DNA from: a virus
Virus record (IMG/VR): IMGVR_UViG_3300005582_000088
Location: 1-25,780 of that record
Reading direction: 5' to 3' (one strand)
DNA: 25,780 bases
The stretch's first letter is position 1. Each line of letters begins with the position of its first letter. Of the stretch, positions 1 to 6,476 are shown one piece after another. Made by a program: the position numbers and the translations under genes. Under the pieces are notes generated by a model. It was not told the origin of the DNA and made no database searches. It worked only from the letters and a program-made list of their open reading frames with translations.

Positions 1-1098
1 AATCCTATTAAACTTAAATACTCTGCAACATATCTGAGTTCTTCTGCATATGACGCGGGTATTACACTTAATAGGGGTGTAAATACAACCTATAATAGTA
101 GTTCTATTGAATTCCTTAACTATGCTTTAGTAAGACAATTATATTATCAAGAATATATTACAGGATCATTATTAAATTCAGCTAATTATTGGGATTCTTC
201 TTTACAATCTACTGCTGCAGAAGGAACATTTGATAATGATTATAGATATTTTCCAACAGAATCAAGTGCTATAGTAACTATACTTGCAATGCCAAGATCT
301 GTATTTGGTGAAAATATAGGAAGAAAAAGTTTAGTAATATCAGGAAGCACATATAGATTAGTTGATGATGGTAATGGTAATGTAGTAGATACATTCTATA
401 ATCAAAATAATCATGTAGGAAATGTGCTATACTCTCAAGGAGTCATCATTATTACAGATGTAGAATATCAATATGCTATGATTCCGTATTCGGGTCCTCC
501 AACTACGACTACTAGTACAACTACCACTACAACTACAGCAGTTCCTACTACGACTACTACTACCACTAGTACAACTAGTACAACAACAACGGCACCTCCA
601 ACTACTACGACAACTAGTACAACGTCAACAACTAGTACAACATCGACTACTAGCACAACTAGCACAACAACAACAGAGCCTCCGACTACTACAACTACTA
701 GTACAACTAGTACAACAACAACAGAGCCACCAACTACTACAACTACAACAACTAGTACTACTACGTCTACGACTACAGTAAATACTTATGTAGCTATTTA
801 CGCTAAAGACATTGGTACAGGAGGTAATGCAACACCAACATTACAATACACAGTTAACGGAGGATCACCAATATCACTTGGTAATGTTGCAACAAGTAGC
901 TGTACGAATTTATTCCAAATCAATGGATTGTCTAATGGTGATGCTCTAGTATTTAGTTTCACTCAAGTATACTCTATGGAAGGCGCATCAGGAGCTGGAG
1001 TATGCCCATCTACAACTAGTACCACTTTCTATAATTACAGCGTAAACACTGGAGCAAATACGATAAGTATTACTGTTGATAGAGATATCGTTCCATAA
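1..1098 (+). CDS. Virion structural / tail-fibre-like protein with Thr-rich linker (5' partial)
   Basis: The frame is open from the first base of the window to a TAA at 1096-1098, so the true start lies upstream; the ATG at 289 is internal. About 160 residues of Tyr/Ser/Asn-rich sequence come first (including FGENIGRKSLVISG and GNVLYSQGVIIIT, of a kind I associate with large structural proteins of Bacteroidetes phages). A linker of nearly pure Thr/Ser with occasional Pro/Glu/Ala follows (DNA about 499-780). The last ~105 residues are a beta-rich domain with two Cys and many Asn/Gly/Thr. It probably forms part of the tail, baseplate or fibre. The linker is mucin-like and the next three genes are glycosyltransferases, so it is a plausible substrate for them (inference). 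Structural role moderately sure; exact part unknown. Confidence 0.75.
   Translation, partial: NPIKLKYSATYLSSSAYDAGITLNRGVNTTYNSSSIEFLNYALVRQLYYQEYITGSLLNSANYWDSSLQSTAAEGTFDNDYRYFPTESSAIVTILAMPRSVFGENIGRKSLVISGSTYRLVDDGNGNVVDTFYNQNNHVGNVLYSQGVIIITDVEYQYAMIPYSGPPTTTTSTTTTTTTAVPTTTTTTTSTTSTTTTAPPTTTTTSTTSTTSTTSTTSTTSTTTTEPPTTTTTSTTSTTTTEPPTTTTTTTSTTTSTTTVNTYVAIYAKDIGTGGNATPTLQYTVNGGSPISLGNVATSSCTNLFQINGLSNGDALVFSFTQVYSMEGASGAGVCPSTTSTTFYNYSVNTGANTISITVDRDIVP
499..780 (+). repeat. Thr-rich low-complexity coding repeat
   Basis: Imperfect short repeats of act/aca/acg/acc and agt codons encode a run of Thr with interspersed Ser and small Pro-containing breaks (APP, EPP). Units such as ACTAGTACAACTAGTACAAC recur. 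The mixed use of Thr codons suggests selection for the protein sequence and not simple slippage alone, though copy-number change is likely between relatives. Confidence 0.9.
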
Positions 1099-1114
1099 AA
1101 AAATTAAAATTGTT

Positions 1115-2071
1115 ATGAAAAATCTACGTTATGTATGTGCTCAACCAAGGCTAGTTTACTATGCTTGGCAAGTTGAAGTTATGATCAATAACTTTATTAA
1201 GCACGGAATCAATCCAAATAATATTGACATTCTAGTTGCTTGGAATCCAAACGATGATACTAGTAAACCTGAAACTATAGAAATGTGGAATAAATTAGCC
1301 ACTCACTATAACATGGTTAGATTCTTTTTTTACGAAGATACTAGAGAAAAGCCAATTAATTATATATCGTCTATTAGACCGAACATAATTAAACAACACT
1401 TTAGAAAATACCCAGAGCTTCAGTATGAAGCGATATTTTATCATGATTGCGATATAGTTTTTACTAAAAAACCAGATTTTAATAAGTTTCTAGATGATGA
1501 TATATGGTATCTAAGCGATACTAATAGCTATATTAACTATGACTACATAATGTCAAAAGGTCAAGATGTTTACGATAAGATGTGTGAAATAGTAAAGATG
1601 CCTAAGATGATCCCTAAGCTCCTAAACGACCACTCAGGTGGAGCTCAGTATATAATTAAAAATATAGATTGGACTTATTGGGATAAGGTAGAAAGAGACT
1701 GTGAGAAGTTATTCTATGAAATTACACAACTAAATATTGAAAAGAAGACTGCAGATCCTTCTCACCATGAATTACAAATATGGTGTGCAGATATGTGGGC
1801 TGTACTTTGGAATGGGTGGATAAAAGGATTCGAAACTTTAGTAGTAAAAGAAATGGATTTTTGTTGGGGAACAGACTCTCCAAAGCGTTGGGAAGAAGTA
1901 ACTATATATCATAATGCAGGAGTGACTTGTGCATGTGGAGGAAAGTTTTATAAAGCAAATTATAGAGATAGCTTACCATATAATTTAAGTCTTAGAACTA
2001 AAGATGATAATTGCAGTCATTTATATTATCAAGAAATAAAAGAAGTTGAAGTAAAATCATGTCTAATATAG
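1115..2071 (+). CDS. Putative glycosyltransferase (GT-A-like, DxD)
   Basis: 318 residues from the ATG at 1115. That start is preferred because it follows the previous stop by 16 nt and has an A-rich leader; an ATG at 1076 would overlap the structural gene. Residues 107-116 read IFYHDCDIVF, a hydrophobic strand ending in a DxD motif (D111, D113) typical of metal-dependent GT-A enzymes. C-terminal features include several Trp and a Cys-rich stretch (around CACGG). No signal peptide or membrane segment is apparent, so it should be cytoplasmic. It is the first of three adjacent glycosyltransferase-like genes after a Thr-rich virion protein. I cannot name the GT family or the sugar donor. Confidence 0.7.
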   Translation: MKNLRYVCAQPRLVYYAWQVEVMINNFIKHGINPNNIDILVAWNPNDDTSKPETIEMWNKLATHYNMVRFFFYEDTREKPINYISSIRPNIIKQHFRKYPELQYEAIFYHDCDIVFTKKPDFNKFLDDDIWYLSDTNSYINYDYIMSKGQDVYDKMCEIVKMPKMIPKLLNDHSGGAQYIIKNIDWTYWDKVERDCEKLFYEITQLNIEKKTADPSHHELQIWCADMWAVLWNGWIKGFETLVVKEMDFCWGTDSPKRWEEVTIYHNAGVTCACGGKFYKANYRDSLPYNLSLRTKDDNCSHLYYQEIKEVEVKSCLI

Positions 2072-2811
2072 GAATAGCTATACTTGCTACAAATGCTTAT
2101 TTTGTTTTAGGAGTTCGTTTTATAAAGAAGTTTATTCATCATTATAAGGGAGACAAACAAATAGTATTTTATTTTTTTTCTGACACAGATCCTAGTCCAT
2201 TTATATCAGATAATATAGATGTAAGATTTTTTAAAACTAACCATGATAATTGGGTTGAAGGCACTAATGATAAATTTAATAGTATAATAAATTTAAATAG
2301 TTGTAATAGTGATTATCTATATTATTTTGATGCAGATACAAACGTATCAAGAGATTTTACAGAAGATTGGTTTTTGGGAGATCTTGTAGGAGGGGAACAT
2401 TTTGGTAATAGAACTTGGTTAAAAGACGGTGCGGGATTTGATAGAAATTCAATATCAAAAGCGTGCGTTCCTATTGATAGTCAATTGCCATATACTTATC
2501 ACTACGGTGCTTTTTTTGGAGGTAAAAAAGAATTAGTTATAGATTTTTGTAAGACTTTAATAGAATGGCAAGTAGAAGATAAAAAAATTCCTTATGAACC
2601 AGGATGTAATGATGAGAGTTATATAAATAAGTACTTTCATTTTAATCCTCCTTATACTGTACCATGCGAAAAATTTATGTTTGATATTAGTGATAAAGGA
2701 GGGATTGGAGAAACTAGAAATCCTAATTTAGAAATAGAGAAATATAAAATAGAAATGCTAGCAAATAAAGATTCTATATTTGATATAAGAGGAGGAATTT
2801 TATGCTGGTAA
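2059..2811 (+). CDS. Glycosyltransferase family 6 (ABO/alpha-1,3-Gal(NAc)-transferase-like)
   Basis: 250 residues, overlapping the previous gene by 13 nt. Visible GT6 hallmarks are YLYYFDADTNV (residues 86-96) with the DxD-type D91/D93, YHYGAFFGG (147-155) corresponding to the YYxGxFFGG segment of ABO transferases, and NDESYINKYF (184-193) corresponding to the HDESHLNKY acceptor/catalytic segment. A protein of about 250 residues without the vertebrate N-terminal membrane anchor fits the soluble bacterial and phage GT6 enzymes. Family members transfer Gal or GalNAc in alpha-1,3 linkage with retention; donor and acceptor cannot be told here. The neighbours suggest modification of a virion protein or of host surface glycan. 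Family call is strong. Confidence 0.85.
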   Translation: MSNIGIAILATNAYFVLGVRFIKKFIHHYKGDKQIVFYFFSDTDPSPFISDNIDVRFFKTNHDNWVEGTNDKFNSIINLNSCNSDYLYYFDADTNVSRDFTEDWFLGDLVGGEHFGNRTWLKDGAGFDRNSISKACVPIDSQLPYTYHYGAFFGGKKELVIDFCKTLIEWQVEDKKIPYEPGCNDESYINKYFHFNPPYTVPCEKFMFDISDKGGIGETRNPNLEIEKYKIEMLANKDSIFDIRGGILCW

Positions 2812-3425
2812 ATTTTAAAAATATTCCTTTTTACTATTTAAATTTTGAGGGATATACTGATAGGAAGGTTAGCATGGAAAAATTACTATCGTCTCTCAAT
2901 ATAAATAATTTAAGAATCTCAAACTCTTACCAATCAAATTTGAGGCAAGATAGGATTGCTTTTGGTGTAACTAAGCTTTTAAATACAGCAATAGAAATAG
3001 GAAAGTATCCTTTTATAATGATGGATGATGATATACAATTAATAAAAGAATTACCTGAATCAATATCCATTCCAGATACTGAAAGTCTTATATTATTAGG
3101 AGGGAGTTTATATGAAACTGGAGGTTACAAACCTAACATGTATTTAGAAGAGTATAATAAAGAGTACTATAGAATTTATTATATGCTATCTATGCATACT
3201 ATGGTTGTACCTAGTCCTAATACTGCAAATTTTTTATTAGAGTCTATAGAGCAATCATTTAATACCCATCAATTTTTAGATGTCGATTTAGCATTAAAAT
3301 CTAAAGAAAGACTGTATCTAACTCCAAAAAGTGGTCCATATTTTTATCAAGATAATTATAATGAGCCTGTCACAAGATTCTTATGGGAAGATGTTAAGGA
3401 TTCTTACATAGGTAAATATTTATAA
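2802..3425 (+). CDS. Putative glycosyltransferase, GT25-like
   Basis: 207 residues, overlapping the GT6 gene by 10 nt. The start is preceded by AGGAGG about 8 nt upstream, an unusually good Shine-Dalgarno match for this window. The N-terminus IPFYYLNFEGYTDRKVSMEK (8-27) resembles the opening strand and 'DR' helix of GT25/LPS-type transferases, and YPFIMMDDDIQL (69-80) has a DDD motif (75-77) at the place of the metal-binding acidic cluster. It is shorter than typical GT25 enzymes, with no membrane segment. It belongs to a three-gene glycosylation set; substrate unknown. Another GT-A family remains possible. Confidence 0.6.
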   Translation: MLVNFKNIPFYYLNFEGYTDRKVSMEKLLSSLNINNLRISNSYQSNLRQDRIAFGVTKLLNTAIEIGKYPFIMMDDDIQLIKELPESISIPDTESLILLGGSLYETGGYKPNMYLEEYNKEYYRIYYMLSMHTMVVPSPNTANFLLESIEQSFNTHQFLDVDLALKSKERLYLTPKSGPYFYQDNYNEPVTRFLWEDVKDSYIGKYL

Positions 3426-3428
3426 TAT

Positions 3429-3731
3429 ATGCCAATAGCTTATTCTCCATATACGATGTCTCTAAATGCAGAGACTACTATTTATCAAAATGAAGTAAGG
3501 TGTCGTGTAAATGAAAATGATTTTAATTATACATTGAATCCAAGTGCAAATAAAGCAGGAACTTCAGGTTCTTATATAGATGCTGTAACAGGATCAGACT
3601 TTCATCCCTATGCTACTACTGTAGGATTATATAATGATAAAGATGAATTATTAGTAGTAGGAAAACTTTCAACTCCGTATCCAGTACCTGAAAATACAGA
3701 TATGACGTTTGTAGTAAGGTGGGATAGTTAA
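3429..3731 (+). CDS. Small virion structural protein-like
   Basis: 100 residues, 3 nt after the previous stop. The central pattern VNENDFNYTLNPS, then YATTVGLYNDKDELLVVGKL, is a module I associate with C-terminal parts of structural (baseplate or fibre-like) proteins in myovirus genomes, including T4-like marine phages. Predicted all-beta, no signal peptide. It follows the glycosyltransferases and precedes a nuclease, still within the + strand late-like cluster. The exact virion location cannot be given. Confidence 0.6.
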   Translation: MPIAYSPYTMSLNAETTIYQNEVRCRVNENDFNYTLNPSANKAGTSGSYIDAVTGSDFHPYATTVGLYNDKDELLVVGKLSTPYPVPENTDMTFVVRWDS

Positions 3732-3741
3732 AAAATAAATT

Positions 3742-4197
3742 ATGAATAAATGGTTATATTTCGATCCTCTAGGAGTTACTAGAGAGTTTAATAGCGTAGA
3801 AGATTTTCCTCCACAAGCTGTAGGGTTTATATATAAGGTCACCAATATTGCCACCAGCAAATTCTATATAGGTAGAAAGGTTCTATATAACAATACTAGT
3901 AAAACATTAACCAAGAAGGAGATCGCGGAATGGGACAAACCTGGGCGCGTACCACGCAAACGAAAGATAGTTAAAGAGTCTGATTGGCTGTCTTACCATG
4001 GAAGTAATAAGCTTTTGAATCTAGAAAGGAAGGAATTCGGTGACGATATCTTTACTAGAGAGATTATTCAATTGTGTTTTTCTAAGAAGCAGTTAACCTA
4101 CTATGAAGTTTATTGGCAAATGTACTATAAAGTTCTACATATAGATTCATACAACGATAATATCCAAGGCAGATTTTACAGAAAAGATGTACAATAA
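3742..4197 (+). CDS. GIY-YIG endonuclease (Seg/homing-like)
   Basis: 151 residues. GFIYKVTNI (28-36) and FYIGRK (41-46) give the GIY and YIG elements. A basic stretch with PRKRKIVKESDW and YHGS follows, then FTREIIQLC and YYEVYWQ (120-126) with E122 as a candidate catalytic Glu. This order is familiar from phage-encoded free-standing GIY-YIG nucleases of the Seg type. Such proteins nick or cut DNA and often spread as homing genes between structural genes. No separate DNA-binding domain is evident. It is the last gene of the + strand block, 10 nt after the previous gene. Confidence 0.85.
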   Translation: MNKWLYFDPLGVTREFNSVEDFPPQAVGFIYKVTNIATSKFYIGRKVLYNNTSKTLTKKEIAEWDKPGRVPRKRKIVKESDWLSYHGSNKLLNLERKEFGDDIFTREIIQLCFSKKQLTYYEVYWQMYYKVLHIDSYNDNIQGRFYRKDVQ

Positions 4198-5559: not shown

Positions 5560-6066
5560 CTACTTATCTCTTTCTTGACTATCAAAATCCTTTGGAGTAA
5601 CTGTCAAAGAATCTCCTAGTCTCTCTATAATCTCAATTGCAACTTTAGATGAAATCTCGAATCCCTCACGCTTAGGGTTTATCCTGTACCCGTAATTCTC
5701 TAGTTGCCTATGAACCTCCTCTTCTAGTCTTCTTGAATTAATACACTTGTATTTGTAGACAGAGAACCAAGGTGTTATAACTCCGGTTGCAGAATTAATC
5801 TCCTTTACCCTTTGATTAACACTTGTACTTGTCATTCCTATCTTACAGATACCAGGCATGGACTTGTTCACTAGAACGTAGACCCACTCAGGTTTTTTTA
5901 TACTTAGGGTAGGATCTAGTATTCCTTCACCATAGTAAGTTACCTCTTCCCATCCAGGCTCGTTACAAGGTGTGAGTGAAAAGGCCACAGCCTTTCTCAT
6001 CTTGTTAGGGTCTTCTCCCTCTAGCCTAACATAGTACTTTGTTTCTTCTAGTGTTATCCTCTTCAT
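5560..6066 (-). CDS. T5orf172-domain nuclease-like protein (GIY-YIG superfamily)
   Basis: 168 residues from the ATG at 6066 (2 nt after the preceding stop); a longer start at 6120 would run into the neighbour. The core EWVYVLVNKSMPGICKIGMT, then VNQRVKEINSATGVITPW and a helix RLEEEVHRQL ending in NPKREGFEIS, is the T5orf172/MUG113 pattern: VYVL..PG..KIG for the GIY-YIG-like strands, RxxELxxATGVP, and a Glu in EEEVHR. The domain is a GIY-YIG relative found in phage and bacterial proteins, presumed to act on DNA. No extra DNA-binding domain is visible. Confidence 0.8.
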   Translation of the reverse strand: MKRITLEETKYYVRLEGEDPNKMRKAVAFSLTPCNEPGWEEVTYYGEGILDPTLSIKKPEWVYVLVNKSMPGICKIGMTSTSVNQRVKEINSATGVITPWFSVYKYKCINSRRLEEEVHRQLENYGYRINPKREGFEISSKVAIEIIERLGDSLTVTPKDFDSQERDK

Positions 6067-6068
6067 AG

Positions 6069-6476
6069 TTAGAATATAATAAATTCTCCATCTTTCCAGA
6101 TAAGTTTTCCGTTTTCCCACACTTCCAAAAGGAATTTAGGCTCAGTCTCAAGCTCCTTTAGAACCTTTTTTATATATACCTCAGAGTACTTAATGTTAGG
6201 TTGGTTTTGTATACCGTCAGTAAATACAAATTTCAAATTAGAACCACCAGGTTTTAATGTAAGAGGGTTCCTCTTGAATGATTTAACTGGTGCGTATTTT
6301 TTTATTTCTATTACAATATTGGACTTTGTAGTTTCAAACTCAACGAGATCTCCACTTTTTAATTTGTTAACCCTTACCAAGAATGAAGAGACTGAGAGCG
6401 GAAAGGCTTCTGTATTTGACTCTTTAGTAATAATGCACCAACCGAATACTGTAAATAGCAATTTTCCTTTTTTCAT
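6069..6476 (-). CDS. Hypothetical protein
   Basis: 135 residues with an even mix of beta-prone and basic sequence, KSGDLVEFETTKSNIVIEI near residue 40, and a C-terminal VLEVWENGKLIWKDGEF-like beta hairpin. The N-terminus is mildly hydrophobic (LLFTVFGWCII) but too short and too polar on its far side for a confident signal peptide. It is spaced 2 nt from the T5orf172 gene, so probably co-translated. No family recognised. Confidence 0.65.
   Translation of the reverse strand: MKKGKLLFTVFGWCIITKESNTEAFPLSVSSFLVRVNKLKSGDLVEFETTKSNIVIEIKKYAPVKSFKRNPLTLKPGGSNLKFVFTDGIQNQPNIKYSEVYIKKVLKELETEPKFLLEVWENGKLIWKDGEFIIF

Follow-up and report, generated by a model that had tools for sequence, protein, structure and literature searches.

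A putative virion-glycosylation module beside a threonine-rich linker protein in an environmental phage genome fragment

Why would a phage keep three predicted glycosyltransferase (GT) genes next to a structural protein that carries a long threonine-rich linker? The question is raised by a 25,780-base IMG/VR virus fragment (IMGVR_UViG_3300005582_000088; the whole stretch analysed is hereafter the window), in which the linker protein gene is followed by three genes, here called genes 1, 2 and 3, all of them on the plus strand. An earlier note on this DNA had suggested that the phage may glycosylate its own tail or fibre protein, and self-glycosylation of a virion protein is the best-supported reading of the data below, since gene 1 follows poly-Thr virion genes in unrelated phages and since linker and gene 1 co-vary. 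Judging from sequence comparisons and structural models, we give a probability of roughly 0.77 to the segment being a virion-glycosylation module in which gene 1 primes the poly-Thr tract and genes 2 and 3 extend the glycan.

The linker-bearing protein is encoded by an open frame at 1..1098 (+) with its 5' end outside the contig; about 7 residues are missing, as judged from a 372-residue relative (L002). It consists of an N-terminal domain, the Thr/Ser linker and a distal beta-type domain. The linker, a putative O-glycosylation tract (496..777, +; residues 166-259 of the open frame), had been put at about 95 residues, and the measured value is 94, of which 67 are Thr, 13 Ser and 9 Pro. Thr plus Ser thus amount to 85%, compared with 22% in the remainder of the protein. 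All four Thr codons (ACT 31, ACA 27, ACG 7, ACC 2) and several Ser codons are used, so the tract is not a simple DNA microsatellite. Homologues of 372-670 residues in IMG/VR are syntenic with structural-type genes, and it is from this gene context that the protein is taken to be a virion component, because it has no family match in Pfam or PHROG. The domain 3' of the linker varies among relatives and is possibly an exchangeable adhesin tip. In three other loci (L060 4372-5985, L419 7057-9999, L249 936-2675), small Cys-containing modules of the YYRL..C type are interleaved with poly-Thr linkers.

Gene 1 (1115..2071, +) encodes a putative initiating poly-Thr O-glycosyltransferase. It matches the profile of phrog_4417, a family labeled "unknown function" in the database, over its full length (E 4.4e-63, residues 18-325 on profile positions 2-292). 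There was no Pfam match at E<=1; the protein shares a GT8-type fold and is not filed as GT8 by its sequence. An AlphaFold2 model built from a 52-sequence alignment reached a mean predicted local distance difference test score (pLDDT) of 96.6, and its closest solved folds are all GT-A: glycogenin (Z 15.2, root-mean-square deviation 3.4 A over 229 residues, at 8-9% identity), LgtC, UGGT and LARGE1. The model thus gives gene 1 a confident GT-A fold of the glycogenin/GT8-like type, and both aspartates of its DXD motif, D111 and D113, are invariant across the 52 sequences. Purifying selection acts on the gene: in comparisons with five relatives, nonsynonymous divergence (dN) was 0.05-0.16 and synonymous divergence (dS), which is near saturation, exceeded 1 where computable. 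The earlier note had also described overlaps of 10-13 nucleotides along the cassette. These are present between the GT genes (13 nucleotides at 2059-2071 and 10 at 2802-2811), but not between the linker gene and gene 1, which are separated by a 16-nucleotide gap because the homologues begin at the ATG at 1115. A TTG start at 1076, which would make the two genes overlap, came from a mechanical listing and was rejected, as most of the relatives of 318-321 residues align from the ATG.

A functional connection is suggested by the recurrence of a Thr-rich tract upstream of gene 1. A tract was scored where 6 or more consecutive Thr/Ser residues, with at least 5 Thr among them, were encoded in any forward frame in the 1.2 kb preceding the gene. 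By tblastn, gene 1 homologues were found in 74 annotated records, mostly phages of Lactobacillus, Enterococcus, Staphylococcus and Lactococcus, together with Chryseobacterium phage MA9V-3. When 23 of these neighborhoods from Lactococcus, Lactobacillus, Enterococcus, Staphylococcus and Chryseobacterium phages were read, 21 of the 23 had the tract, versus 2/166 control windows. The corresponding figures were 30/34 for close IMG/VR relatives (controls 11/624) and 11/32 for more distant ones (controls 7/526). The association was also seen from the opposite direction, in loci selected without regard to gene 1: a homologue of this gene was present in 12 of the 120 viral loci with (ACN)8 and in none of the 117 with (GGN)8 (p=3.7e-4).

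In the annotated phages, the gene directly 5' of the gene 1 homologue typically encodes a major capsid or major tail protein with a C-terminal poly-Thr tail. Examples are the phiFL1A major tail protein (ending in ...NGTTTTTSTTTTTTSSTTTTTTTQASSK), the 4995_1 capsid protein (...GTTTTTTKPTTTTTTTQA) and phage 1706 (...VTTTTTTTTTTHHD). Two or more virion proteins per genome have such tails in phiFL1A (gp45 and gp50), iLp84, R3.3, CHPC971 and 1706, and in the whole genome of bIL285 every (ACN)6 match lies at one of two sites, where the capsid gene and orf50 end. In this Lactococcus phage (L409 1700-2010) the capsid frame continues past its stop codon with NDKTTTTTTRHD, which may reflect readthrough or a recent nonsense change, and the orf50 protein ends in TTTTTTTTTRHD. 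The capsid gene of Enterococcus phage 9183 has a -1 slippery sequence, C_CCA_AAA, before its stop codon, and the -1 frame enters poly-Thr; phage nattely is similar. The tail protein genes of SA2 and TPWB06 end in CCC TAA, and there the +1 frame enters a long poly-Thr stretch. From their sequences, the tails in these four phages appear to be added in a shifted reading frame (sites at L398 2240-2400, L408 1690-1890, L399 2190-2430 and L400 2150-2430), and programmed frameshifting could cap the number of subunits that carry the poly-Thr tag.

Linker and gene 1 are also gained and lost together. Of 80 loci selected through c3, the structural protein encoded upstream, 47 were distinct and fully assessable, with both linker and gene 1 in 7, neither in 36, gene 1 only in 3 and linker only in 1 (Fisher p=1.4e-5, an optimistic value, as are the other p-values, because related sequences were counted as independent). 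A close relative of the linker protein (L098; 88% identity over query residues 2-132) lacks both the linker and the GTs.

As to the remaining two enzymes, the claim that the cassette contains three glycosyltransferase-like genes is borne out by evidence of differing kinds: the model with a pLDDT of 96.6 for gene 1, a Pfam GT6 match for gene 2, and for gene 3 a model with a pLDDT of 73.5 plus a weak PHROG link. By its sequence, gene 2 (2059..2811, +) is a true member of GT6, the family of ABO and alpha-1,3-Gal/GalNAc-transferases, and it scores 40.3 bits against PF03414 (Glyco_transf_6; cut-off 25). Profile matches include BoGT6a (1.8e-16) and the ABO transferases (8e-16). Its DAD motif, a DXD variant invariant in 16 sequences, is aligned with the DVD of ABO. 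The score against NCBIfam NF041524, a family 6 glucosyltransferase subfamily, is below the cut-off (62.6 versus 250 bits), which places gene 2 outside that subfamily. Gene 3 (2802..3425, +) is, with moderate confidence, a GT25-like GT-A enzyme. It is linked weakly to phrog_24091 (E 1e-11) and has no Pfam GT25 match; its model is closest in fold to the GT25-type domain of human ColGalT1 (Z 14.6, root-mean-square deviation 2.7 A, 168 residues), to R655 of mimivirus and to a chlorovirus glycosyltransferase with a role in capsid glycosylation. Its relatives are few (4-7 loci, none in annotated phages), which is why the model is shallow. Across all three GT genes dN was 0.05-0.22 and dS, again near saturation, about 0.8 or more where computable.

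Taken together, these observations suggest the following mechanism. The Thr/Ser tract of the structural protein, if that protein is present in virions, would be the acceptor. Gene 1, as a catalytically active cytoplasmic GT-A enzyme, would transfer the first sugar onto Thr and Ser of the tract before or during assembly, and the products of gene 2 (GT6) and gene 3 (GT25-like) would append further sugars. The product would be a mucin-like glycosylated spacer bearing the distal domain. The step-by-step order claimed by the earlier note, like the identity of the sugars, is something we infer, and the spacer may act in host adhesion or as a shield, the purposes that the note had named. This scheme agrees with the fact that the nearest GT-A folds are those of enzymes that glycosylate proteins (glycogenin for gene 1, collagen galactosyltransferase for gene 3), and that the adjacency of poly-Thr and gene 1 spans phages of bacteria from different phyla, both of which argue for self-glycosylation.

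The genes downstream of gene 1 bear on the question in a different way. The earlier note had proposed a search for the cassette in related phages, and among the 80 IMG/VR loci carrying gene 1 that were retrieved for comparison, gene 1 after the linker protein does recur, with varying extension genes. The gene order in the closer half of these loci is c2, c3, linker protein, gene 1, one to several variable genes, c1 and c5. Among the variable genes are those for GT6 (c12), gene-3-like (c29), GT2 and GT32-type enzymes, for methyltransferases of the FkbM and other kinds, for a radical SAM protein and for an NAD-dependent epimerase. What follows gene 1 in Bacteroidota-type phages is an interchangeable collection of genes for glycosyltransferases, methyltransferases and sugar enzymes, a composition that speaks for glycosylation of the virion. 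As the first enzyme is retained and the extension genes are exchanged among relatives, related phages would bear different glycans. It could be argued instead that gene 1 does glycosylate virion proteins while its variable neighbors serve other acceptors or merely occupy a general cargo hot spot, given that the slot also houses radical SAM and unassigned genes and that Gram-positive phages have gene 1 without obvious adjacent extension genes. We regard this as rather unlikely, since the assignable cargo consists mostly of glycosyltransferases and methyltransferases with one epimerase, and the short overlaps between the genes of the window would suit co-translation.

A second group of loci (L043-L079) has gene 1 beside a methyltransferase-like gene and a conserved unassigned protein, distant from any linker gene. 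Phage glycosyltransferases that alter the host O-antigen are well known, and such loci would fit enzymes that modify the host surface (lipopolysaccharide or capsule), for example in superinfection exclusion, with the Thr-rich linker as nothing but a flexible spacer. This explanation is very unlikely: adjacency to poly-Thr capsid and tail protein tails recurs in Gram-positive phages, linker and GT co-vary in loci selected by another gene, and several of the longer L043-L079 contigs have Thr-rich proteins elsewhere. Glycosylation of phage DNA to give hypermodified bases, for which DNA-modifying phage GTs provide a precedent (Pyle et al. 2024, as cited in PMC12619734), is highly improbable for genes that lie within a structural operon beside poly-Thr tracts and whose products come closest in fold to GTs acting on proteins or saccharides.

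Several observations weigh against glycosylation of the virion by its own cassette. Three loci (L021, L024 and L026) have gene 1 next to a structural protein that ends before the linker, with no poly-Thr there; they are a partial exception and do not have the other two GTs. A 142-kb contig (L061) gave no match to Thr-rich patterns, and one locus (L489) has a poly-Thr linker with no gene 1 nearby. In 521B and LP65, the two annotated phages scored as tract-negative, Thr-rich repeats are interrupted by other residues. Many of the compared sequences are related, so that the Fisher values overstate their independence, and the gene 3 model is of only moderate quality. Related phages with the three GTs and no Thr-rich linker had been named as a finding that would speak against self-glycosylation; in one relative (L085) the gene adjacent to the three GTs indeed has no linker, but its contig includes, a few kb further upstream, a 980-residue frame with a poly-Thr linker.

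In place of the linker, the L024 contig encodes a long fibre-like protein with Ser/Thr/Gly repeats. Long (GSSGTSG)n repeats characterize a fibre-like protein (L422 11912-14845) whose contig carries gene 1 and lacks a poly-Thr linker; this protein is a possible alternative acceptor. Elsewhere (L231 639-1181, L238 216-3335), Thr-rich proteins are followed by genes that resemble other GT families, as read by eye from their N-termini; other enzymes may thus also serve Thr-rich tracts.

Longer gene 1 homologues (about 480-590 residues) are found in the chromosomes of Sphingobacterium, Pedobacter, Mucilaginibacter and Chitinophaga. Several lie near GG-leader peptides, one of which has a TTTTTTSS core and a weak TIGR04149 match, and this proximity is a further argument for self-glycosylation. 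The neighborhoods would fit an enzyme family acting on peptide Ser/Thr, though this is only a lead. In Sphingobacteriales/Chitinophagales loci (L125 5609-5857, L115-L128), the homologues are near GG-leader peptides and LanC-like proteins, and the products are possibly glycosylated ribosomally synthesized and post-translationally modified peptides.

The 3' boundary of the cassette is formed by a conserved gene of about 100 codons (cluster c1; 3429..3731, +), found at the same position in about 35 relatives. By eye its product resembles in pattern the C-terminal domain of c3, the structural protein encoded upstream, and the c1 profile also matches longer proteins in several c3-selected loci. Shortly 3' follow two GIY-YIG-type endonuclease genes (SegE-like and T5orf172), at 3742-4197 (+) and 5560-6120. 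The first also matches phrog_447, whose label, 'NAD synthetase', is probably a mislabel.

How does the proposed module compare with known systems? The glycosylation of Ser-rich repeat adhesins (GtfA/GtfB) and of eukaryotic mucins works alike, in that a Ser/Thr-rich tract is served by an initiating GT and by variable extension GTs; the enzymes probably belong to families different from those of the cassette. Gene 1 shares its fold and DXD motif with glycogenin and other GT8-type protein glycosyltransferases, at 8-9% identity. By sequence, gene 2 clearly belongs to GT6, alongside the ABO transferases, BoGT6a and the GT6 of cyanophage P-SSM2, and has a DXD motif like the mammalian enzymes, unlike the NXN of bacterial BoGT6a. 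The resemblance of gene 3 to GT25 (ColGalT1, mimivirus R655) appears to be one of fold, on a moderate model.

Virion glycosylation by phage GTs is already established in mycobacteriophages. In Che8, Corndog and Myrna, capsid and tail-tube subunits are glycosylated by phage GTs, with the glycans at the C-termini (Freeman et al. 2023, as reported in PMC12363180 and PMC12619734). The likeness lies in phage-encoded GTs and, for the window, a putative virion-protein acceptor. The systems differ in that no Mycobacterium record was among the 74 annotated records matched by gene 1 in tblastn, and the C-termini of the Che8 capsid and tail proteins have no poly-Thr tail. No description of poly-Thr phage tails, or of capsid or tail O-glycosylation with phrog_4417, was found in the literature searched, which left most subscription journals outside; the nearest match, a survey of aquatic jumbo phages, concerns GTs in the core genome of these phages. 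Within that scope, the phrog_4417 enzymes and the poly-Thr tag appear to be undescribed.

Beyond the window, we give about even odds to a wider proposal, in which phrog_4417 would be a dedicated poly-Thr O-glycosyltransferase family and poly-Thr tails or linkers a portable tag, sometimes appended by frameshift, that the major capsid and tail proteins carry in Bacillota and Bacteroidota phages (and one recorded from Arcanobacterium). In Bacteroidota-type phages, the exchangeable genes would then provide a lineage-specific glycan coat, the virion counterpart of bacterial O-antigen variation. A family annotated as unknown thereby gains a testable function, and the pair of poly-Thr tail and phrog_4417 offers a sequence signature by which glycosylated virions may be predicted; phages bIL285, iLp84 and Chryseobacterium phage MA9V-3 are culturable systems that contain it. 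If the proposal is true, particle glycosylation would be far commoner in tailed phages than the mycobacteriophage cases suggest.

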